Shown here piece by piece: positions 2,360 to 61,508 of a DNA stretch of 64,000 nucleotides. Under the pieces are notes generated by a model. That model saw nothing but the letters and a program-made list of their open reading frames with translations. It ran no database searches and had not been told where the DNA came from. The position numbers were made by a program, and so were the translations under genes. Every line of letters begins with the position of its first letter. Within the stretch, counting starts at the first letter, position 1. Origin of the DNA: Notolepis coatsorum (lineage: Eukaryota > Chordata > Actinopteri > Aulopiformes > Paralepididae); the NCBI GenBank assembly GCA_963971535.1, contig OZ020593.1, positions 40,474,766 through 40,538,765 of the forward strand. The letters run 5' to 3'.

Positions 2360-2741
2360 TAAAAAGCTCACCACATCATGTCTCCCATCCACACAAATGC
2401 ACCACCCAGCAGCAATGTGTCGGATCTAAAGTGAACGTCCCCAAACGTGTCTTCTCTACCATCAGTAGCCTCTTTCAAACATGAACTTGGTTTAGAAAGG
2501 GGCTGGCACCTAGGTAGAGTGAGGGCATGGTGCATTGGCGCACGCCGCATGAAGGGAAAAGTAACCTACCTCCCTTGCCTGTGAATGGAAGATCATAATA
2601 AGGGGGGGCGACAGGAGCTCAGGAGGTAGAGCAGTCCAATGTGCAATACCATCCGGAGAGACGATAGGGGGCGGTATTTTCTCTGTTCGAGCTCAGACAG
2701 ATCCCCACTGGTAACGTGAGGCTAGATTGATGAAAAATAAC

Positions 2742-2828
2742 GATTAAAAACGAGATTTCTCGTCGGTTGGCACTCAACGCATGGCATGAACTAACAAGAT
2801 TTCTCGTGGCTCGCACTCAAAGTGTTAA
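2742..2828 (+). mobile_element. Right end of a piggyBac-like element (truncated)
   Basis: Two copies of a hairpin-headed motif (CGAGATTTCTCG followed by a G/T-rich GGC-CACTCAA stretch, then AAGATTTCTCG with GGC-CACTCAA again) end in AAAGTG followed by TTAA at 2825-2828. The same architecture ends the full-length piggyBac-like copies at 9335, 26502, 39298 and 44590. No matching left end was found upstream, so this copy is probably truncated. Confidence 0.5.
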
Positions 2829-2835
2829 CGTTACC

Positions 2836-2946
2836 TTGGCTAAAGTTGGTACTATTCATAATCCAGCAATAATGGCTGCAGACCTGCAAGCAAAGTACAG
2901 CAAGTTGGCAAAGGAGTATTCCAAGGTAAATAACTTTTTCACCAGT
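2836..2946 (+). pseudogene. Captured PPP1R21 first exon with splice donor, copy 1
   Basis: The exon runs 2872-2925: ATG, 18 codons reading MAADLQAKYSKLAKEYSK, then a consensus donor AAG|GTAAAT. Vertebrate PPP1R21 (KLRAQ-motif protein) begins with the same pattern (LQ-KY-KLA-EYSK followed by LRAQNQ), and the cut after EYSK is consistent with an exon end. About 35 bp upstream (5' UTR-like) and 20 bp of intron are shared with the copy at 27794. No continuing coding sequence is present, so this is a displaced fragment rather than the gene. It begins just after the TTAA of the piggyBac-like end. An accidental match is unlikely given the donor, but ownership by PPP1R21 rests on remembered protein similarity. 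Confidence 0.65.
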
Positions 2947-3084
2947 AACGTTACATTGTCTTGTTTCCATCTAACGTTAGCTCACGTTAACTGGCTGACC
3001 TAGCTCACGCTAACGTGGCTGATCGACCTCTCCCACACATGCACGCAATTAATGACATAATGCGGACAGCCATACCGGTTTAGC

Positions 3085-3595
3085 CAGTGGTGCAGTCGTA
3101 ATATGGGAACTGGTAACACGCCACGCCACGTGCACGCGCGCGCGGGTACGTGCATGCGCACAGAACTGATTTATACACACGCACGCACACACACACACAA
3201 GCGCATATACGCAAGTGCAATCTTTCTATCATACAAGCTCTTCTTGCTCTCTATTTGTGTGAATGTGCGCGTGGAAAGCTGGCGCGCAGCACAGACGCTT
3301 GATTCAATATCATAAGCAGGTAGACCCCATCACGAATTCCGAGCCACATTAGTATTCACCTCCACTGCCTGTGTCACACAGAATGAAGGGGGAGATGCAT
3401 TCAGATAGCCAACACCCAGACACTTAGTCTACCTGCGCTTTTTGTTATGTAAAACGGTGGCCGGGTTTTGTCACAACGAATGGATACAGCGCATTTTTGT
3501 GTGCGAGTACACATCCGTGCGCGATCGCGCGTACTTCTGCCTCAGTGATCTGGTAACACGGCGTGTAACCGCGTGTGACCACGACTGCACCACTG
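3085..3595. mobile_element. Non-autonomous hAT-like element, 511 bp
   Basis: Ends are CAGTGGTGCAGTCGT and its inverted copy ACGACTGCACCACTG. The flanking 8-bp direct repeat GGTTTAGC (3077-3084 and 3596-3603) is exact. The subterminal region repeats GGTAACACG-type motifs, and the interior is rich in alternating purine/pyrimidine CGCG and CACA tracts. No transposase coding sequence is visible. Confidence 0.85.
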
Positions 3596-3603
3596 GGTTT
3601 AGC

Positions 3604-4032
3604 AATGTCAATGTTTAGCTTTTAGTGCCAAATGAGTCTCAAAGGGGAATGTTGAATATTTATTGTGCAAAAATCACAACAGAGCCTCTCCTACTAGCTA
3701 ACTGAACCGGAGCCTTCTGGTAGCAAGTGCAACAACGTATAACGTCCGTGCGGAATCAATGTCCCAACAACCTTTCCGTGGGTGAACTCATTGAGCATAG
3801 TTGTCAATTAATGATACTAATACTAATCTATACAATCACCTGTTGTTTAATAAATACCATTACTTTATAGTTATTACTAAAAAAACAATTTTATAATTAC
3901 ATTTTTTTTTTAATGTATGCACTGGTATCTGATCAGTATCGGTATCGGCCGATATCCAAAGCTTAGGTATCGGAATCGGATCGGGAAGGAAAAAATTGGA
4001 TCGGAAGTTTCGGAACATCTCTAGAATTTGGC
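3604..4032. mobile_element. Remnant with one hAT-like end at 3930-4032
   Basis: From about 3930 the sequence carries reiterated TATCGGTATCGGCCGATA motifs and stops at AACATCTCTA. This is the structure of one end of the CGATACCG-type hAT-like elements found elsewhere in the window. The partner end is not visible. The stretch 3604-3930 shows nothing recognisable. Confidence 0.4.
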
Positions 4033-5355: not shown

Positions 5356-6615
5356 TTACAAATAAGGTCTAATGTCAAAGTCCTCATTAAGTCCTGTTGG
5401 TGCCATCGTTTTAAGATAATGGATCCACCATACTTCTCTCCTCAGTAGGAGATTATCTATATCTCCCCCTCGTCTTGGAAGATGCACTCTCTCTATTCCA
5501 AGGTATCTTAATGATGAGACATTGTGGTGTGCCTTTTTAAAATGTAAAGCTACTGGGCTTTTTTCATCCCCATTCCGTATCGTACTCCTGTGTTCAGCAA
5601 TGCGTGTTTTTAAAGCACGTGTTGTCTTACCGACATATGCCTTACCACATGGGCACTTAAGCATATAGATTACATTGGTAGTTGTACATGTTATTTTGCC
5701 TCTTATTTTTATCTCTTTCCCAGTTGTTGGGTGATAGAAAACAGTGCATTTTTCTGTGAAGTGACATTGAGCACACGAACCACAACGTCGGTTTCCATCT
5801 GGTAAGTCATCTAAAAAATTGTGTGTTTTCTTAGGAGGCAGGTCTGATTTAACCACAATGTCTCTGATGTTATGTGCTCTCCTGTAGACTAGTCTAGGGG
5901 GGATCTGAAAAGATTTATCCAATGTTGGATCAGAACTGAGAAGATGCCAATGTTTTTTAATAGTATGTTTAAAAAGGTTGCCTAGAGGCGAGTATTGTGT
6001 AATACACTGTATAGGTTGTCCAGAGGTAGTTTTGTTTCTTGTAGATTGTAAGCAATCTTCTTGGGTTTTATGACCCACTTTCAAAGCTGCTTTTTCTACA
6101 ATGTCTTGTGTGTACCCTCTGGTTTTAAACATCGTTTTTAAAGTATCTGTCTGTTCCTGAAAACATTCATCTGTACTACAGATTCTACGGATCCTGTAGA
6201 ACTGGCTGATAGGTAAACTGTTTTTTAGCGGAGTAGGATGAAATGAATCACTTCTCAACAGAGAATTTCTGTAACAAGGTTTTCTGTATACATCCGTTTG
6301 GAATGTACCATTGTCTTTTTTGATTATAATATCTAAGAAATTCACTTGGTGTTGGTCATACTCCATAGTAAACTTTAGATGTTCATTTTTGGCATTGAGG
6401 AAATTAAAGAATTGTATCAGTGTCATTTCATCCCCTGTCCACAGTATGCAAATATCATCTATATATCTTTTCCACATCTTAATGTATGGTAAAAACACAT
6501 TTTCTGAGGAATTGAATACATAATTCTGCTCAAAAAGACCCATATAAATATTGGCTATGGATGGGCTGGCTTTGCTTCCCATACTCACGCCCTTGATTTT
6601 GTAGATAGTTCTCAT
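5356..6615 (-). pseudogene. Penelope reverse transcriptase C-terminal half plus GIY-YIG endonuclease
   Basis: This 419-codon open frame holds the second half of the Penelope reverse transcriptase. GVSMGSKASPSIANIYMGLF is near residue 10, and the catalytic YIDD box (RYIDDICILW) is near residue 50. A Cys pair module (CGSCAQC) follows near residue 275. The GIY-YIG nuclease core (VIYMLKC, then AYVGKTTRALKTRIAEHRS) is near residues 315-345. The last residues are a normal Penelope C-terminus ending in a stop. The frame is the continuation of 6530-7639 in a different phase: a one-base slip in a short A run near 6600 separates DENYLQ from IKGVSMGS. The part is otherwise free of stops. Confidence 0.9.
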
Positions 6616-7639
6616 CTTGGAACATGAAGTAGTTATGCGTGAGTAGAGTCTCTGTCAGTTCTATAAGAACGTGTGTTTCTGGTGTTGAATCCGGTGGACG
6701 TTGATTCAGGAACAGTGTCAGGGCTTCTAGAGCCCCTGTATGGGGTACTGAAGTGTACAAGGATTCGATGTCCAAACAGGCCATGTAGGTCACAGTGGTC
6801 GGATCCTGGACGGACTTCAAAGTCTTCAGTAGGTCTGTTGAATCCTGTGTGAAGGATGGGAGAGATTTCACAATTGGTTGTAGGAAGAAGTCCACATAGG
6901 AAGAGATGTTTTCAGTGAGAGATCCAATTGCTGCCACTATTGGTCTACCTTTAGGTTGAACAGGATCTTTATGCACTTTTGGCAGGCAATAGAACACTGG
7001 AGTCATTGGATGATCTATCTTCAGAAAGGCATATTCTTTTTTGGTCAAGAGGTCATTGTCCAACCAATTCTTTAATTGATGATGAATCTCATTTTTGAAA
7101 ATAGCTGTTGGATTTCCAGAAAGTTTTCTGTAATTCTTAGCATCTCCTAACTGACGGTGCACTTCCTTCTCATAATCACTCCTATTTTGAACAACAATAG
7201 CCCCTCCTTTGTCTGCATTTTTCACAATCAAAGTAGTATCTTTAGAAAGTTTGTTTAATGCTTCCCTTTCTTCCTTTGATAGATTGTTGTACACCTTATA
7301 TTCTTTTCTGTTCTTAAGAGTATTTCTGACGTCTTGTTCTACCAATCTGCAATAGGTGTCAACGGATGCATTTCTATGTTTCGGTGGAATAAAAGTGGAT
7401 TTTCCACGAAATTTACTAGAGTTCTCTGGTGTTTTAATTTCACTAATTGTTGAATCCATTGCAGTTGGTCCATCATCCTTATTACTCTTAAAAAATTCTC
7501 GTAGTCTTATAGATCGAAAGAATTTGTGAAAGTCAATGATTGTGTTGAATTCATTACAGTCAGTTGTTGGCACAAAAGATAGGCCTTTTTTCAGGGCTGA
7601 CTCACATGCAGTAGAGAGGGGTTTGTCACTCAGGTTCAT
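6530..7639 (-). pseudogene. Penelope reverse transcriptase N-terminal half
   Basis: Recognisable Penelope landmarks in order are KKGLSFVPTT, NADKGGAIVV, PVFYCLPKVHKDP with KGRPIVAAI, and motif A (MACLDIESLYTSVP), which carries the first catalytic aspartate. The last residues after FQDENYLQ are out of frame because of the slip near 6600. At the upstream end the frame continues open before the ATG (ELHEIINIMNLS) and should be joined to the N-terminal region at 7648-8027, but a second frameshift near 7650 puts that region in another phase. A full Penelope protein is one polypeptide, so this copy is inactive as written. Confidence 0.88.
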
Positions 7640-26497: not shown

Positions 26498-27538
26498 TTA
26501 ACACATTCAGGGCCATTGGGATTAGACACGCTATCTTTTTTTCTCTAGTTTTCACTGTGCGTGAGGTTGTTTGTAGAGCTAAATCTATATTTTATATTAT
26601 TGCTATGTGTCCATTGTCATTGTCAATTGACAGTATAAACCTTCCCCTTCAATATGCCATACATTTTTTTCCCATCAATACGTTCCCGTTTTATACCGGT
26701 GTGACTCGTGAATATGAAAGTTATATCGGAATGGTCTGGGGTAATTCCTGCAAAGCTAGTTATAGGGCGCTAGCTAATAACGTTAAATCTAGGGATGCAC
26801 CGATATGAAAATTGGCCACCGATACCGATTGTTCAACTAACACAATCGGCCGATACCGATACTTGTGGCAAAAAATAAGTATTTGTAATTTTTTTTAATA
26901 TTTTTTTTTAAATTTTTTAAATGAAACTACTGTATATTTGTATGTGTATGTTTGTATTTGTAGGCCTCTTTACTTACTTAAAAAAAGGAAACATCAAGAA
27001 ATATGTTTATGGTATCACTATCCCTCTCCCAGTATCGTCTGGCGGCCTGCAGAGGGATACTATTTTCTCAACCAGAGCTTTCAACCAATGCAATGGAACC
27101 ATTCTGGCGGCCTGCAGCGGGATACTATTCTCTCAACCAGAGCTTTCAACCAATGCAATGGAACCATTTTGATTGACAGTCGATTCGGCCAATTACGCCA
27201 CACCGCTAGCACCCACCTTCTGCTGTTCTTACCACCAATCGGCAAGCGTTTATTCATTTTCTACTTCGGGGCATGCCGCCATTGATCTGCTTGCGAGTCA
27301 AACTCAGAACCACAACAAGCTAATACGTTAGCTGCCCGGCAGTGCCCGCCGACCAGCGCGCTCCACAGGATTGCCAAACGAGACACAATGATTTTAGTAC
27401 TGCAACAAATGTTATAATAAAACAAAGCCTTTCTATACATTTGTCTGGTTGAAAACTTTATTAACAGATTGCAGAATGGGTAGTTGGGTACGGAATGGAA
27501 CCGAGCTATGAACGGCTTGCTTGCTATCTTCGGGTAAA

Positions 27539-27941
27539 TACTATGCTGATGTAATTGAACGTGTAACTAACTATATAACGTTAATGCCACAAAACGAATG
27601 TTTGTGTCATTTTAACAGCAGATACTTTCTTAAATGCCATCCTCCCGACAGAGCGGTGTTGATGGGGAGCTCTGATGGGTTCGCTTGGTTGTGTTATTAG
27701 CATTGAACAGCTAACCGAAAGCTAGCGTTAACTAATGTTAAAGGTTTAGCCATAACGTTGGCTAAAGTTGGGGCTATTCATAATCCAGCAATAATGGCTG
27801 CAGACCTGCAAGCAAAGTACAGCAAGTTGGCAAAGGAGTATTCCAACGTAAATCACATTTTCACCAGTAATAATAATATGCTGATGTTATTGTCTGTGTA
27901 ACACTAACTATATAACGTTAATGCCACAAAACGAATGCCTT
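27539..27941. repeat. Direct repeat flanking the captured host segment
   Basis: A stretch of about 62-65 bp of transposon sequence (ATGCTGATG...TAACTATATAACGTTAATGC...CAAAACGAATG) occurs at 27539-27600 and again at 27877-27941. It is present once in the related element at 61205-61264. The copies bracket the acquired segment at about 27601-27876. Confidence 0.8.
27747..27868 (+). pseudogene. Captured PPP1R21 first exon, copy 2
   Basis: The exon lies at 27794-27847 and encodes the same 18 residues as copy 1 except that the last codon is AAC, not AAG, so the base before the GTAAAT donor is C. Upstream TTGGCTAAAGTTGG, CTATTCATAATCCAGC and downstream TTTTCACCAGTAA are shared with copy 1. It lies inside the hAT-like element 26790-28182, between two direct copies of transposon sequence. 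It is non-functional as a gene because only exon 1 is present, but the start codon and splice donor could in principle be used. Confidence 0.65.
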
Positions 27942-28831
27942 GTTAATCATAAGTAGTAACTTTGATGCAGTAGCTTGTGTGTGTGTGTGTGTGTGGGGGA
28001 CGGCGGGCGTTGTGCAGGTATGTCGCGAGTGAACATTTTTTTTTTGCCTTTTGACGCTACACAAATTGATGGTTATTTATCGGCGACTGCTATCGGCACA
28101 TTTGAGCTTATCGGCCGATAGCAGTCAACAAGGCACTTATCGGCCGATACCGATACCCGACCGATATATCGGTGCACCCCTAGTTAAATCGATTGGCGTT
28201 TTGGCCCTACACAAGCTAGAGTTAAAAATCTAAATGCATATGATTGGTATCATGTTCCACCATGAATGCATGAAAGGGGGCGGGCAGGGGAAATCATTTC
28301 TGATTATTGATTACTAATAACAGCATTCGTTATTGCATCATCATACGCTGACCGGGTGGATGGCTATGAGAACAAGGCTGAAATTTACGTCAAATCGCTC
28401 TTACCTGTGGCCGGTTTGATTCCAAAAATAATTTCCCAGTTATTTGATTGCCATCTGGTAGATTGATATGTCCATTGGCCGATGCTATATTCCTTTACTG
28501 CATACTGAATTCGGCGTCGCAAAAAGTATTCCAGGCGATCTGGTGAAGCCATAGCTGTAGGCTAACAGAAAAGCTAACCCGGAGCGAAAAAAAAGTGACA
28601 CCCTGTCTGCAACAGGGGAAACTGCATTCTCGAGACGGCAATACCAATACCAGGATCTGGCCGGTACTGCACTTTCGGAGTCCTAATATGCCTTTTCCAG
28701 CCAAAATACAGCTCTGTGACATTGAGTAGGATATTAAAATGGAATAAAAGCAAAACCGAGTTTAACACGTATATATACGTGGTTGGCCATCAAGCGCTGG
28801 CTCCCAATCACGTGGTTGGCCATTGTGTTAA

Positions 28832-47570: not shown

Positions 47571-48812
47571 CATTTACATTTACATTTAGTCATTTAGCTG
47601 ACGCTTTTATCCAAAGCGACTTACAAGGTATAACTATCAGCTGAGTAACAATGTTCATCAAAGTGTTGCGTGTTACAGTGTTCGTTTATTAGGACAAGTG
47701 CATGACGGTAAGGTTAGTCGGGGTTAGATTTTTTTTTATTTTTTTATTTTTTTTTAATCATTTCAGATAATGGTTGAAGAAGTGAGTCTTTAGTCGACGG
47801 CGAAAGATTGGACGGGATTCGGCTGTCCTAACTGGTATGGGTAGTTCATTCCACCATTGTGGGGCAAGGACTGAGAATAGGCGGCTTCTCTTTGATGACC
47901 CTCCGGGAGCTTGGATAGGAGTAGATCTGAGGCGGCCAGAAGATGCAGAGCGTAGGGGTCTTGAGGGTGTGTAGTTAGAGACCATTGACCGGAGGTAGGC
48001 GGGAGCGGTTCCCTTTGCCGCACGGTATGCTAGGTCGAGGGCCTTGAAGCGGATACGTGCAGCAATGGGGAGCCAGTGCAGGTCCCTAAGAAGTGGGGTG
48101 ACATGGGCCGACTTTGGTAGGTTTGAGATCAGGCGGGCCGCTGCGTTTTGAATGAGTTGAAGAGGCTTGGTGGCAGTGGCCGGGAGGCCAGCTAGCAGTG
48201 CGTTGCAGTAGTCGAGGCGGGAGATGACTGTTGATTGGACGAGGAGTTGGGTGGCTTCTTTTGTCAGGAATGGGCGTATCCTTCTGACGTTGCTCAGGAG
48301 GAATCTGCAGGTTCTGGTTGTCGCTGCGATGTGAGCAGAGAAGTTCAACTGGTCGTCGAGGACAACACCAAGGTTCTTGGCGGTCGGGGACGCGGTCACA
48401 GCTGCATTCTCGACTGTGATGGAGAGGTCGGTCAGGGGGGAGGATTTGGCCGGCAGGTGGAGCAATTCTGTTTTGCTTAGGTTCAGTTTGAGGTGGTTGG
48501 TCGTCATCCAGGCGGAGATGTCGGACAGACAGGCCGAGATCCGCTCAGAGACGTGGATATCTGAGGGAGGGAAGGAGAGGAAGAGTTGAGTATCATCGGC
48601 ATAACAATGATATGAGAAGCCATGAGACGTGATAATGTTACCCAGTGATTTAGTGTAGAGGGAGAAGAGAAGGGGTCCTAGGACCGAGCCCTGGGGGACA
48701 CCCGTCCGGAGGGGGCGGGTGGCCGACAGAGTCCCTCTCCATGACACTTGGTAGGAGCGGTCATTGAGGTATGATGTCAGCCATGTCAGCGCAGATCCAG
48801 CCACTCCCATCC
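47571..48812 (-). mobile_element. L2-type LINE, 5'-truncated
   Basis: The minus-strand 3' end carries TTGTAAGTCGCTTTGGATAA, then AAGCGTCAGCTAAATGACTA and a tandem AAATGT tail, the hallmark 3' end of fish L2 LINEs. The 5' break lies near 48812, where conserved protein similarity stops. Clear TSDs were not identified. Confidence 0.85.
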
Positions 48813-48873
48813 CATGTACACACTGCAGTCTTGGTTCGCTTCGGGTTCTGTTTACGGTTTGCCTTTTGAGCAT
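47758..48873 (-). CDS. L2 LINE reverse transcriptase, C-terminal part, intact frame
   Basis: An open frame of 371 codons. Residues 1-20 come from flanking sequence, and LINE similarity begins at about GMGVAGSALTWLTSYLNDRS. Reverse transcriptase motifs follow: PQGSVLGPLLFSLYTK near residue 59 and the catalytic box YADDTQLFLSF near residue 90. Then come the conserved L2/CR1 downstream blocks HLKLNLSKTELL, NLGVVLDDQLNF, SRLDYCNALLAGLP and HVTPLLRDLHWLPIAARIRF, and the C-terminal FRRRLKTHFFNHYL. The endonuclease domain and first RT motifs are missing through 5' truncation. The absence of stops over more than 1 kb suggests recent insertion. It is unlikely to be expressed as a functional protein. 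Confidence 0.85.
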   Translation of the reverse strand: MLKRQTVNRTRSEPRLQCVHGMGVAGSALTWLTSYLNDRSYQVSWRGTLSATRPLRTGVPQGSVLGPLLFSLYTKSLGNIITSHGFSYHCYADDTQLFLSFPPSDIHVSERISACLSDISAWMTTNHLKLNLSKTELLHLPAKSSPLTDLSITVENAAVTASPTAKNLGVVLDDQLNFSAHIAATTRTCRFLLSNVRRIRPFLTKEATQLLVQSTVISRLDYCNALLAGLPATATKPLQLIQNAAARLISNLPKSAHVTPLLRDLHWLPIAARIRFKALDLAYRAAKGTAPAYLRSMVSNYTPSRPLRSASSGRLRSTPIQAPGGSSKRSRLFSVLAPQWWNELPIPVRTAESRPIFRRRLKTHFFNHYLK

Positions 48874-52387: not shown

Positions 52388-53227
52388 ATTGCATCAGTGT
52401 AATAAGTGTAAGCACAGCAGAGCCCTGCTCCGCTTCAGACAGACAGAGACAGCGTGCGAGATCAACAACAAACCTACCGGCTCTAATAACATTAGCTCCC
52501 CGCCGGCCACGAGTAGACTACCAGCGCTCCGCAGGATGACCAAACGAGGCATAATGATTTTACTGCAACGAATGTTATAATAAAAGCTTTTCTATACATT
52601 TGTCTGATTGAAAACTTTATTAACAGATTGCAGAATGGGTACAATTCAGTACGGGCTCTCTGAGCAAAGGAAGGAACTGAGAGATATGAATGAGTAATGC
52701 TTGCTATGGTCGACTCGGGTAAATATGCGGATGTTATTGAACGTGTAACTATATGTAACGTTAATGCCACAAAACGAATGCCGTTAATCATAAGTAGGGA
52801 TGGGTACCGAATTCGGTTCTTTTGAGGTACCGAACCGAAACACGTCGGTACTACAGAGTATCGATTCAAGTGAGATAGATACCGAAAAAAAAACGTTTCT
52901 TTTTACTTTTTACCTTTTTCTTTTCTTCTTTTTTTTTAACTTTTTTTTTCTTTTTTTTTTTACCCTTTTTCTTTTCATGTCAACGTTCACACGCACAATA
53001 TATGCTTACCTAGGATTTGACTTGATTCAACAACAAAGCAGTTGGAGCAATGGCAAGCCGAAAACGGTCGAAATTGTAGTTATTTGAAGTTAGGATTTTT
53101 TTTTCACGACTGAGGTAGGTAAATAATTTTTTTTTTAGACTAAAGTACCGAAAAAAGGTACCGTTGGGTACCGGTATCGATTCACAGGTACCTGTACCGT
53201 ATCGGTTCAAATGTGAAAGGTACCCAT

Positions 53228-55252
53228 TAGAGCTGCCGCGGTATTGATGTTTTCCTTACCGCACACATTTGCAAAATATTTCCTACCGCCGCGGTTATTA
53301 CACACACACAAAAAAAAAGTTTGAATGCATTTTTTTTGTAGTCTACTCTTTATAGCATATAGCCTGCCTCTAGTCTAAATGTCTATCTTTAGAGGATGAC
53401 TTTGCAGCATGAATATTGTTTGGGATTCGGCATGCACGCATTCGTTATTAAAAGTGAAACACGGATTCGAAGTCTCCCCTCGGTGTCGCGAGCAGGGGTG
53501 GTAGCGGCGCGCCCGCCGGTTACCCCCCCGACCCTTTCTTCTTATTATTATTATAACGTTACTACTTATGATTACAAAGGCATTCGATTTGTGGCATTAC
53601 GTTAGTATAGTTACACGTTCGTATTTACCGGACCATAGCAAGGCAAGCGTTACTCAATTAATATCTAAGTTCCTTTCTTTGCTCAGAGCGTGCCGAGTTG
53701 TACCCATTCTGCGGTCTGTTAATAAAGTTTTCAATCAGACAAGTGTATAGAACGAAGGGCTTTTATTATAACATTTCGTTGCAGTAAAATCATTATGCCT
53801 CGTTCCCTGAGGAGCGACGGCGTCGGTAATCCACTCCGGTCTCCGGTGGGAGCTAACATACTATTAGCCGTGTTGTGACTGAGCTCTGATCAATGGCTCA
53901 TGGCTGAGATTCAGGAAGTAAAAGCACTGCAAGATGCTTCAGCATGTGACGCTAGGGCTGGGCGATATGACGATATTATATAAATATCGGGTACAGTTCA
54001 TTAACAATACACTTTTTCAACGTATCGTGGATATCGTGATGTTTTGCCCAATAGGATTGTGTCGCGTCAATCTGGTCCACACGTTACTCGTTCATATCTC
54101 AGCCCGTGTTGAGATATGCCCATTCCGCGGTCTGTTAATAAAGTTTTCAATCAGACAGATGTATGGAAAGGCTTTTATTATAACATTTGTTGAGGTAAAA
54201 TCATTATGGCTCATTTAGTCATCCTGTGGTGCACTGGTCTCCTACTAGTCGGTCGCGGGGAGCTAACGTTAGTAGCTTTGTTGATGTCAGCACACCGGAC
54301 ATTCAGGAAGTAAAAAACTAATAGAGCTTGCCGATTGGTGCTAAGAACAGCAGGGCGGGTGCAAGCGGTGTGACGTAATTCATTCATTCTGAATGAATGA
54401 ATGAAAACTTTATTAACATATTGCAGAATGGGTACAATACAGTACAGGAGGATGAAGACCAGAAAAAGACTTTCGGCTTTTTTACATAAGGGTCCTCCAT
54501 TTTCAATTCATCAAAACATTTAGAGACATACAAATATACAGTAGTTTCATAAAAATGCTAAAATGCTATTGATTGATTGATTGATTGATTGATTTAAAAC
54601 TTTATTAACATATTGCAGAATGGGTACAGTACAGCTCAATACACACAATTGTTAAGGGGATGCAGACCAGAGAAAGACTTTTGTCTTGTTTACATCAGGG
54701 TCCCCCATTTTCAATTCATCATATTTCATATCTAAATCATATAATATCTCATTGCTAAATATATGCAATATATTATAATCTAATAATCCAATAATCTAAA
54801 TCTAATATATAATATAAAAATGCTAAATGCATGGGTATTTTATTTTGTCTTTAATGTTAGCTTGCAAACTCAAATACTGTCTTGGTAAGCCTCATAATGA
54901 ATCGTTTGGGGTAAAAAAGAAAAACATCGTGATGCGTATCGTGTATCGCCGAAAGGTCAGAAAATATCGTGATATCATATTTAGGCCATATCGCCCAGCC
55001 CTATGTGACGCGTATCTCTTCTGCCCAATCAGTGGTCTGCAGTGTTTCATGTGACTTTTCTGGTACCCAATAGGGTCGCTTGGAATCTCGACAGAGAAGT
55101 AGGGTATATCTGCAGAGCCGCAAGACCAACGAGAGCGTAATAATAATAATAATATAATAAAAAACAGCGGTGATGCCGGTATTCAGCCCAACGCTGCGGT
55201 GGGCATGATGTAACAGCGATACCGCGGTAATACCGATACCGCGGCAGCTCTA
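53228..55252. mobile_element. TAGAGCTGCCGCGG hAT-like element, level 3 of the nest
   Basis: Ends TAGAGCTGCCGCGGTATTG and ATACCGCGGCAGCTCTA. The 8-bp TSD GTACCCAT (53220-53227 and 55253-55260) is exact and lies inside the level-2 terminus. Subterminal TACCGCGGTA palindromes are present. It is interrupted by 53953-55003. Confidence 0.92.
53953..55003. mobile_element. TAGGGCTGGGCGATATGACG hAT-like element, level 4 of the nest
   Basis: Ends TAGGGCTGGGCGATATGACG and CCATATCGCCCAGCCCTA. The 8-bp TSD TGTGACGC (53945-53952 and 55004-55011) is exact. Subterminal ATATCGTGATA repeats are present. It includes two minus-strand LINE tails (about 54395-54535 and 54568-54720) with GAAT and GATT repeats. Confidence 0.92.
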
Positions 55253-55955
55253 GTACCCATCCCTAATCATAAGTAGTAACTTTGATGCAGTAGCTTGTGT
55301 GTGTGGGGGTGGCGTTGTGCAGGTCGCTTGACTGAAACTTTTTTTTAAAGTTTGAACTTGTTGACGCGACACAAATTGACGGATATTTATCGGCCACTGC
55401 CATCGGCACATTTGAGCTTATAGGCAGATGGCAGTCAACAAGGCACTTATCGGCCGATACCGATACCCGACCGATATATCGGTGCACCCCTACTTGTAAC
55501 GGTGTCATCTAACCTCGCGTGAGCCAATGCCGTTGCTGTAGTCGAGCGCGGGCGCATGCCCTAGACACCAATGTTCACGTCGAACGTCCACGTGCACTAG
55601 ACACCGACGTCCGCGTGCCCTCACCAACGTCCGGTGAAAACCGGAAGAGAACAGGATCCATACTTTTCCAGCACTGGATTATTCAGCTAGCTATTACAGG
55701 GTGTCCGCGGATCCTTAAAAAGTCTTAAAAGGTCTTAAATTTGTTTATCAATAATTAAGGCCTTAGTTTGTCTTAAAATGTCTTAAATCCATTTTCAGAC
55801 GTCTTAAAAATGCTATAGAAAGGAAAGATAAAATGCCATGTCATCTTATGTTTTATTATGAAATCTGGGGGAAAACGGTTAACGGGAGATAAAGTTTGAC
55901 TTTTCATTGTAGAATCACGCAGACCGGAATGGGGCGGAACCAACACAACTCCTTG

Positions 55956-60458: not shown

Positions 60459-61508
60459 TAGGGATGCACCGATATGAAAATTTGCCACCTATACCGATTG
60501 TTCAACTAACACAATCGGCCGATACCGATATTTGTGGCAATTTTTTTTTCTTTTTGTAATATATATATATATTTTTTGTAATATATATATATATATTTTT
60601 TTTATGAAACTACTGTATATTTGTGTTACAAATTGTGCTCACCGATATGAACATAGGCCTCTTTACTTACTTAAAAAAAGGAAACATCAAGAAATAGCAC
60701 TATCTCTCTCCCAGTATGTTCTGCCGGGCTGCAGCTAGATACTAGTTCTCCCAGTATGGTCTACCGGGCTGCAGCTGGATACTATTGTCTCAACCAGAGC
60801 TCTCAACCAATGAAATTTTGATTGACAGTCGATTCTGCCAATTACGTCACACACCGCTTGTACCCGCCTCTGCTGTTACCACCAATCGGCAAGCGCGTAT
60901 ACATTTTTTACTTCCGCTTTTGTCCGCCATTGTTTTTGACGAGAGCTGATCTCTACAACAACAACAACGTTAGATCCCCGCGGTGGCGCGGCCGACGTTT
61001 AGCTTTTAGCTCCGCAGGATGACTAAACGAGGCATAATGATTTTACTGCAACGAATGTTATAATAAAACAAAGCCTTTCTATACATGCGTCTGATTGAAA
61101 ACTTTATTAACAGATTGCAGAATGGGTAAAACTCAGGGCTCTATGAGCAACGGAAGGAACTGAGCTAGTATGAACGAGTAATGCTTGCTACGTTCGGGTA
61201 AATAATATGCTGATGTTATTGAACGTGTAACTAACTATATAACGTTAATGCCACAAAACGAATGCATTTGTTAATCATAAGTAGTAACTTTGATGCAGTA
61301 GCTTGTGTGTGTGTGGGCCGGGGGCGGCGTTGTGCAGGTCGCGACGCGACTGAACTTTTTTTTGCCTTTTGACGCGACACAAATTGATGGATATTTATCG
61401 GCTACTGCCATCGGCACATTCGAGCTTATCGGCCGATAGGCCGATTGCAGTCAACAAGGCACTTATCGGCCGATACCGATACCCGACCGATACATCGGTG
61501 CACCCCTA
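60459..61508. mobile_element. TAGGGATGCACCGATATG hAT-like element, 1050 bp
   Basis: Ends TAGGGATGCACCGATATG and ATACATCGGTGCACCCCTA. The 8-bp TSD ATTATTTT (60451-60458 and 61509-61516) is exact. It is a close relative of 26790-28182 but without the captured exon. (AT)n tracts lie near 60560-60600. Confidence 0.92.

Follow-up and report, generated by a model that had tools for sequence, protein, structure and literature searches.

The hAT element at positions 26790-28182 of the window (the whole 64,000-nucleotide stretch of Notolepis coatsorum DNA analysed here) carries the first exon of PPP1R21 together with adjoining sequence. This fragment very probably arrived in two steps, being captured from the gene by one hAT family (family 2) and passed on to another (family 1, to which the window element belongs), with amplification in both.

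The chimeric element and its PPP1R21 fragment

The family-1 element lies on the plus strand and is complete, with a length of 1393 bp. Its bounds agree exactly with those given by the first-pass annotation, and on each side stands the 8-bp target site duplication (TSD) GTTAAATC, at 26782-26789 and 28183-28190. The TIRs, TAGGGATGCACCGATAT at 26790-26806 (plus strand) and TAGGGGTGCACCGATAT at 28166-28182 (minus strand), had been described as exact; in the window copy they are identical at 16 of 17 positions, and it is in the majority sequence of a 17-copy family-1 alignment that they agree at 17/17. Family 1 belongs to the hAT elements by its 8-bp TSDs, as well as by the TIR TAGGGGTGCACCGATAT and the subterminal sequence that it shares with a transposase-coding element described below.

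Within the element, two direct copies of transposon sequence bracket the insert at 27537-27600 and 27872-27937, both on the plus strand. They are 89.4% identical over 66 columns, and the pair had already been recognised from the sequence. The right copy is about 90 bp shorter in the window than in the family-1 majority, where the right repeat matches the left at 80.8% over 125 columns. Three relatives of family 1 are free of the insert. The one at 60459-61508 (plus strand), flanked on both sides by the TSD ATTATTTT, contains the bracketing repeat only once, so the comparison from which a capture had been proposed was borne out. The second, at 52524-55492 (plus strand), is incomplete in its left part and has a single bracketing repeat at 52722-52780, while the third is a 4.66-kb element on contig C1. 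Since such relatives exist, the segment is not ordinary transposon sequence common to the whole family. The relative at 52524-55492 is itself split by a hAT-like insertion at 52795-55265 with the TSD ATCATAAG, a composite with the ends TAGGGATGGGTA...TACCCATCCCTA. Furthermore, a stretch of about 33-40 bp at 27446-27482 (GAAAACTTTATTAACAGATTGCAGAATGGGTA) is common to family 1, other window repeats and PPP1R21 intron 1, and it is also found at several places at 51-61 kb of the window.

The parental gene was located on contig C23. A genome search with the Pfam domain KLRAQ (PF10205) gave a single match, on C23 (5 candidates, all 5 scored), and it is from this one search that the single-copy status of PPP1R21 is taken. 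In the 120 kb examined there, exon 1 (MAADLQAKYSKLAQEYSK) lies on the minus strand and ends at 6664243, where it is followed by GTAAAT; exon 2 (LRAQNQVLKKAVVDEQ) lies near 6646366 on the same strand. The joined peptide of exons 1 and 2 matched PDB 7nd2_A (Protein phosphatase 1 regulatory subunit 21) with an E-value of 3.9e-13, and a further C23 exon matched the same entry with an E-value of 1.5e-14. Window positions 2833-2948 were also considered as the real PPP1R21 gene and were rejected, as the KLRAQ exon is on C23 and 2825-3079 is itself a repeat.

Alignment of the insert to this 120-kb stretch revealed two collinear blocks. The 5' flank (27605-27704, plus strand) is 84.5% identical to C23:6664874-6664766 (minus strand; E 4.5e-25), and the block with the pre-ATG sequence, exon 1 and the start of intron 1 (27753-27870, plus strand) is 89% identical to C23:6664337-6664219 (E 3.5e-39). 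Between the two blocks the gene contains an expanded short repeat and additional sequence missing from the insert. By eye, the PPP1R21 5' flank at about C23:6664790-6664560 has an expanded tandem repeat with a unit of about 30 bp. The segment had been taken for the 5' flank, exon 1 and intron 1 start of PPP1R21, and this identification stands because the insert aligns to the C23 locus in collinear blocks, with E-values that speak against chance, and the match includes both the 5' flank and the beginning of intron 1. The captured exon (MAADLQAKYSKLAKEYSN) occupies 27794-27847 on the plus strand. An ATG exon of 18 codons had been read here, and both the exon and the GTAAAT that follows it at 27848 are present; the final residue is N, not K, the last exon base being C where the PPP1R21 gene has G.

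Two amplified hAT families

Family 2 is represented in the window by a member at 2825-4023 (plus strand) whose left end is not present. Its PPP1R21 exon 1 lies at 2872-2925 (plus strand) and keeps the donor AAG|GTAAAT as in the gene. A search with positions 2641-3080 yielded 5,420 candidates, of which the best 40 were scored, query included, and seven were compared. The family is hAT-like, about 1.05 kb long, with the TIR TAGAGTTGTTCCGATA...TATCGGAACATCTCTA. Perfect 8-bp TSDs were found in four of the five copies tested (L043, L044, L045 and L046), which identifies family 2 as hAT; the right end of the fifth (L047) was not found, and L048 and L049, whose left ends differ, were left out of the test. 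The segment 3080-3605 (about 526 bp) of the window copy has no counterpart in any of the seven family-2 copies with which it was compared.

In a 1054-bp member, positions 148-322, 327-517, 534-608 and 784-877 are collinear with C23:6664936-6662611, and positions 609-783 had no listed match to the C23 locus. Family 2 thus holds a gene fragment with its flank and intron inside its TIRs, as expected of a Pack-TIR that captured DNA and not a retrocopy, and its parental locus was identified as PPP1R21 on C23, which had been checked against PDB 7nd2_A. In addition, a search with the PPP1R21 gene as query (70 pieces, best 40 scored of 3,427 candidates) led to seven loci, which we examined as long copies. 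The left border of the captured stretch is at C23:6664936 in five of the seven, and four have 6662611 or 6662614 as the right border. A 1.32-kb piece of intron 1 (C23:6664162-6662842) is not covered by the hits above 70 bits listed for the seven long copies, and in L053, L055, L056 and L057 the sequence is continuous across its place; much of this piece has counterparts in repeats at other places on C23 and in the window. Given the absence of the 1.32-kb piece and the sequence running across its place, the family-2 long copies appear to preserve PPP1R21 intron 1 from before a 1.3-kb insertion.

The amplification of family 1 was followed with the 276-bp segment as query, for which the best 40 of 2,255 first-look candidates were scored and 28 of these 40 were examined with their flanks, the window copy included. 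Seventeen of the 28 are complete, with perfect 8-bp TSDs and lengths of 1299-2487 bp, and they represent 15 distinct insertion sites, as L004/L005 and L030/L032 share their TSD pairwise. The chimera has therefore transposed after the capture. The remaining 11 were excluded from the alignment for missing recognised end(s), assembly gaps or unequal flanks. The complete copies differ from their own majority by 0.4-2.4%, a range that belongs to the top of a similarity list, the family as a whole being more diverged.

Copy numbers were obtained only from whole-genome pattern counts, which may include duplicated assembly stretches; the candidate numbers 2,255, 5,420, 3,427 and 10,698 were not used for this purpose. 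With up to three mismatches, the left junction of the family-1 insert gave 1,198 matches (596 + 602) and the reversed-pattern control none. A 57-mer over the family-2 exon-intron border, also with up to three mismatches, gave 1,449 (706 + 743; control 0), and a 47-mer over the exon and donor that admits both families gave 3,678 in the genome (1812 + 1866; control 0). Whether the chimera is amplified, a question raised by the first-pass annotation, is thus answered by 15 distinct TSD sites and 1,198 junction matches. Six extra family-1 copies were chosen among the matches to the left junction because their exon border did not appear among the exact matches listed, a choice that biases them towards altered copies; four of them keep the exon end, at 85-94% identity to the majority, and two are without it.

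A hAT domain search (best 150 scored of 10,698 candidates) was used to look for a transposase source, and the stretches after four of the matches were examined. By eye, two of the four, beside frames of 660 and 655 codons, run into family-1-like sequence. The first of the two, followed to both ends, is an intact-looking transposase-coding element of 4660 bp at C1:198861699-198866358; it has the TIR TAGGGGTGCACCGATAT, the TSD CTAGTAGG on both sides and no insert, and its right 374 bp are 93% identical to family 1. It contains an open frame of 660 codons, and the 640 codons run through Pfam gave zf-BED and Dimer_Tnp_hAT. Judging from the shared ends only, this element may mobilise family 1 in trans. 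Several similar frames of 655-660 codons among the matches listed suggest recently active hAT transposases.

Source of the family-1 fragment and competing explanations

The immediate donor of the family-1 fragment was probably family 2, with its earlier and larger capture, and not the PPP1R21 gene. All of the insert that matches PPP1R21 falls inside the stretch of the gene carried by family 2. At one exon site the gene, six of the seven long copies and human PPP1R21 have Gln (LAQEYSK), while all eight short family-2 copies and all six family-1 copies have Lys; the long copy L052 also has Lys, so the change may not be unique. Furthermore, a 10-bp deletion upstream of the ATG is common to family 1 and the short copies of family 2, and is absent from the gene and from 7/7 long copies. 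A tree rooted on the gene was built from 26 sequences, picked by similarity, over just 263 columns. In it family 1 joins the short copies of family 2 in a clade with UFBoot 96, outside of which stand the gene and the long copies. Support was 100 for family 1 alone and 97 for the family-2 short copies, and the nodes that decide where the joint clade sits among the long copies have low support (55-74).

The sites themselves are not uniform. Among 279 aligned sites, 19 unite family 1 with the family-2 short copies against the gene, 25 have a state found in family 1 alone and three are different in all, while at eight the insert has the state of the gene and not that of the majority of the family-2 short copies; five of these eight lie in a poorly aligned stretch. 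None of the 15 family-2 copies aligned matches the family-1 insert at every diagnostic site, and the exact donor was not found among them. We read the conflicting sites as pointing to an intermediate donor that was not sampled. Family 1 is therefore classed not as a primary Pack-TIR capture, with its fragment taken directly from the host gene, but, as its nearest source is family 2, as a secondary derivative behaving in the manner of a Pack-TIR. The first-pass annotation had proposed a Pack-type capture by a hAT from the gene itself. The hAT assignment and a Pack-type structure fitting template switching were retained, but a direct PPP1R21 donor is improbable in view of the shared Gln-to-Lys change, the 10-bp deletion and the tree.

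The process probably ran as follows. A non-autonomous family-2 hAT would have acquired about 1 kb of PPP1R21, consisting of about 640 bp of pre-ATG sequence, exon 1 itself and some 310 bp of intron 1, and would have multiplied, internal deletions producing the short form. Subsequently, during the repair or replication of a family-1 element, synthesis may have changed template to a family-2 element, taken from it about 275 bp that include exon 1 and re-entered family 1 about 125 bp upstream of its exit, which would place the fragment between direct repeats. A family-1 transposase acting in trans would then have spread the chimera by ordinary hAT transposition, with the PPP1R21 piece most likely a passenger.

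The bracketing repeats bear on this route in both directions. The left and right repeats differ by 19-20% in L062 and L063, and by 24-26% in the majority, L058 and L061. Those of L062 and L063 have common features missing from both insert-free relatives in the window, and for this reason the bracketing repeat looks like a duplication made at the entry of the insert that later diverged. However, a difference of about 19-26%, depending on copy and alignment, counts against a simple story, as a single recent duplication alone would not give it, and so does the putative microhomology at the junction, which by eye is a short one of about 4 bp (AATG).

Alternatively, family 1 could have drawn its fragment straight from the PPP1R21 gene, with family 2 making its own capture separately; the eight of 279 sites at which the insert sides with the gene would fit, and a fragile or open promoter could have exposed the same exon to two hAT families. 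We consider this unlikely, since the Lys residue and the 10-bp deletion are common to family 1 and the short copies, the 19 sites that unite these two against the gene are to be added, the clade of UFBoot 96 leaves the gene and the long copies apart, and the insert's matching part is contained in what family 2 carries. It is also quite unlikely that the insert is what deletions left of a whole family-2 element that had inserted itself into a family-1 element. Nested insertions do occur here, as at 52795-55265, but neither a family-2 end nor an 8-bp TSD was seen at the borders of the insert, and a simple insertion yields no direct repeat of some 125 bp of element sequence.

The reverse direction, in which the fragment is old transposon DNA and the first exon of PPP1R21 was born from it, would agree with the high copy number alone. 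It is extremely improbable given that the C23 peptide of exons 1 and 2 can be aligned with human PPP1R21 beginning close to its start, and that the long copies follow the gene collinearly through upstream, exon and intron sequence. A separate matter is whether the captured exon and 5' flank have a function, providing promoters, first exons or small RNAs against PPP1R21 that aid the spread of the elements. The ATG exon has been kept by both successful families, family 2 retains the gene-like AAG|GTAAAT in a border with 1,449 matches to the 57-mer, and some animal Pack-TIRs are transcribed, often as host chimeras, according to the part of the survey drawn on here (Tan et al., 2021; PMC8277862). 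The sequence data nevertheless make this very unlikely. Exon divergence was not significantly lower than flank divergence in the seven long copies (8/369 against 39/1279, p 0.48) or in the eight short ones (3/432 against 19/1205, p 0.23), and among the 15 family-2 copies two have in-frame stops and two others indels. In family 1 the last exon G of the donor is lost, AAC standing before the donor where the gene has AAG, in 28/28 copies and in the four of the six extra copies that keep the exon end; three of these four also have GC for GT at the donor. Since family 2 keeps a gene-like donor, a cryptic first exon is possible at some of its sites.

Relation to known gene-capturing transposons

Pack-type capture by animal hATs is already known, and what is unusual here is the copy number and the transfer between families. 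The part of the animal survey of Tan et al. (2021, Nat Commun; PMC8277862) drawn on here counts 370 animal Pack-TIRs, 208 of them with hAT, and four multicopy cases (1.4%), for which a model of template switching followed by transposition is presented. Among the multicopy cases is hAT-N8_XT, which carries 291 bp from the 5' UTR of CAPSL and has been amplified onto three frog chromosomes. As in our case, these are non-autonomous hATs with a host gene fragment, for which template switching has been proposed. However, the examples in that part of the survey have few copies, compared with the 1,198 junction and 1,449 exon-border matches in the present genome, and, unlike those cases, the fragment here has apparently moved between two hAT families. 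The filters described there (a unique top hit and a length 80-120% of that of the parental copy) could well overlook a family of this kind.

Other systems share individual features, as far as the sections of the reports used here describe them. Plant Pack-TYPE elements, including Pack-hAT, are likewise non-autonomous DNA transposons that capture and shuffle coding DNA, though in plants (PMC8903248). Transduplication by Turmoil-1 of C. elegans also concerns an animal transposable element with host coding sequence, but its captured sequences lie inside its inverted terminal repeats, unlike the arrangement here (PMC2572040). The mar family of Drosophila hAT MITEs similarly consists of short non-autonomous hATs, for which the available portion of the report, in contrast to our case, mentions no captured host exon (PMC3517528). 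In titles and the beginnings of abstracts, with most subscription papers outside the scope, no report was found of this PPP1R21-hAT family or of a transfer between hAT families.

In the part of the animal survey cited (PMC8277862), most captures of genes by DNA transposons are single-copy, whereas here one exon has given rise to thousands of matches in two hAT families. As the exon appears to have been passed between the two families, a gene fragment borne by a transposon can become the source of the next capture. The gene, the long capture, the short derivative, the chimera, the insert-free relatives and the transposase-coding relative share one genome, so that it is possible to order the steps of the capture and to test them. 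A bolder view, for which we see only a small chance, is that a promoter and first exon form a module transferable between hAT families, which would spread a start codon and donor to thousands of sites and serve there either as a portable first exon or to trigger small RNAs that PPP1R21 must evade.

Finally, two frames on the minus strand of the window matched reverse transcriptase (PF00078), one at 5359-6654 with an E-value of 8.3e-5, below the curated cut-off, and the other at 47761-48873 with an E-value of 1.3e-16.
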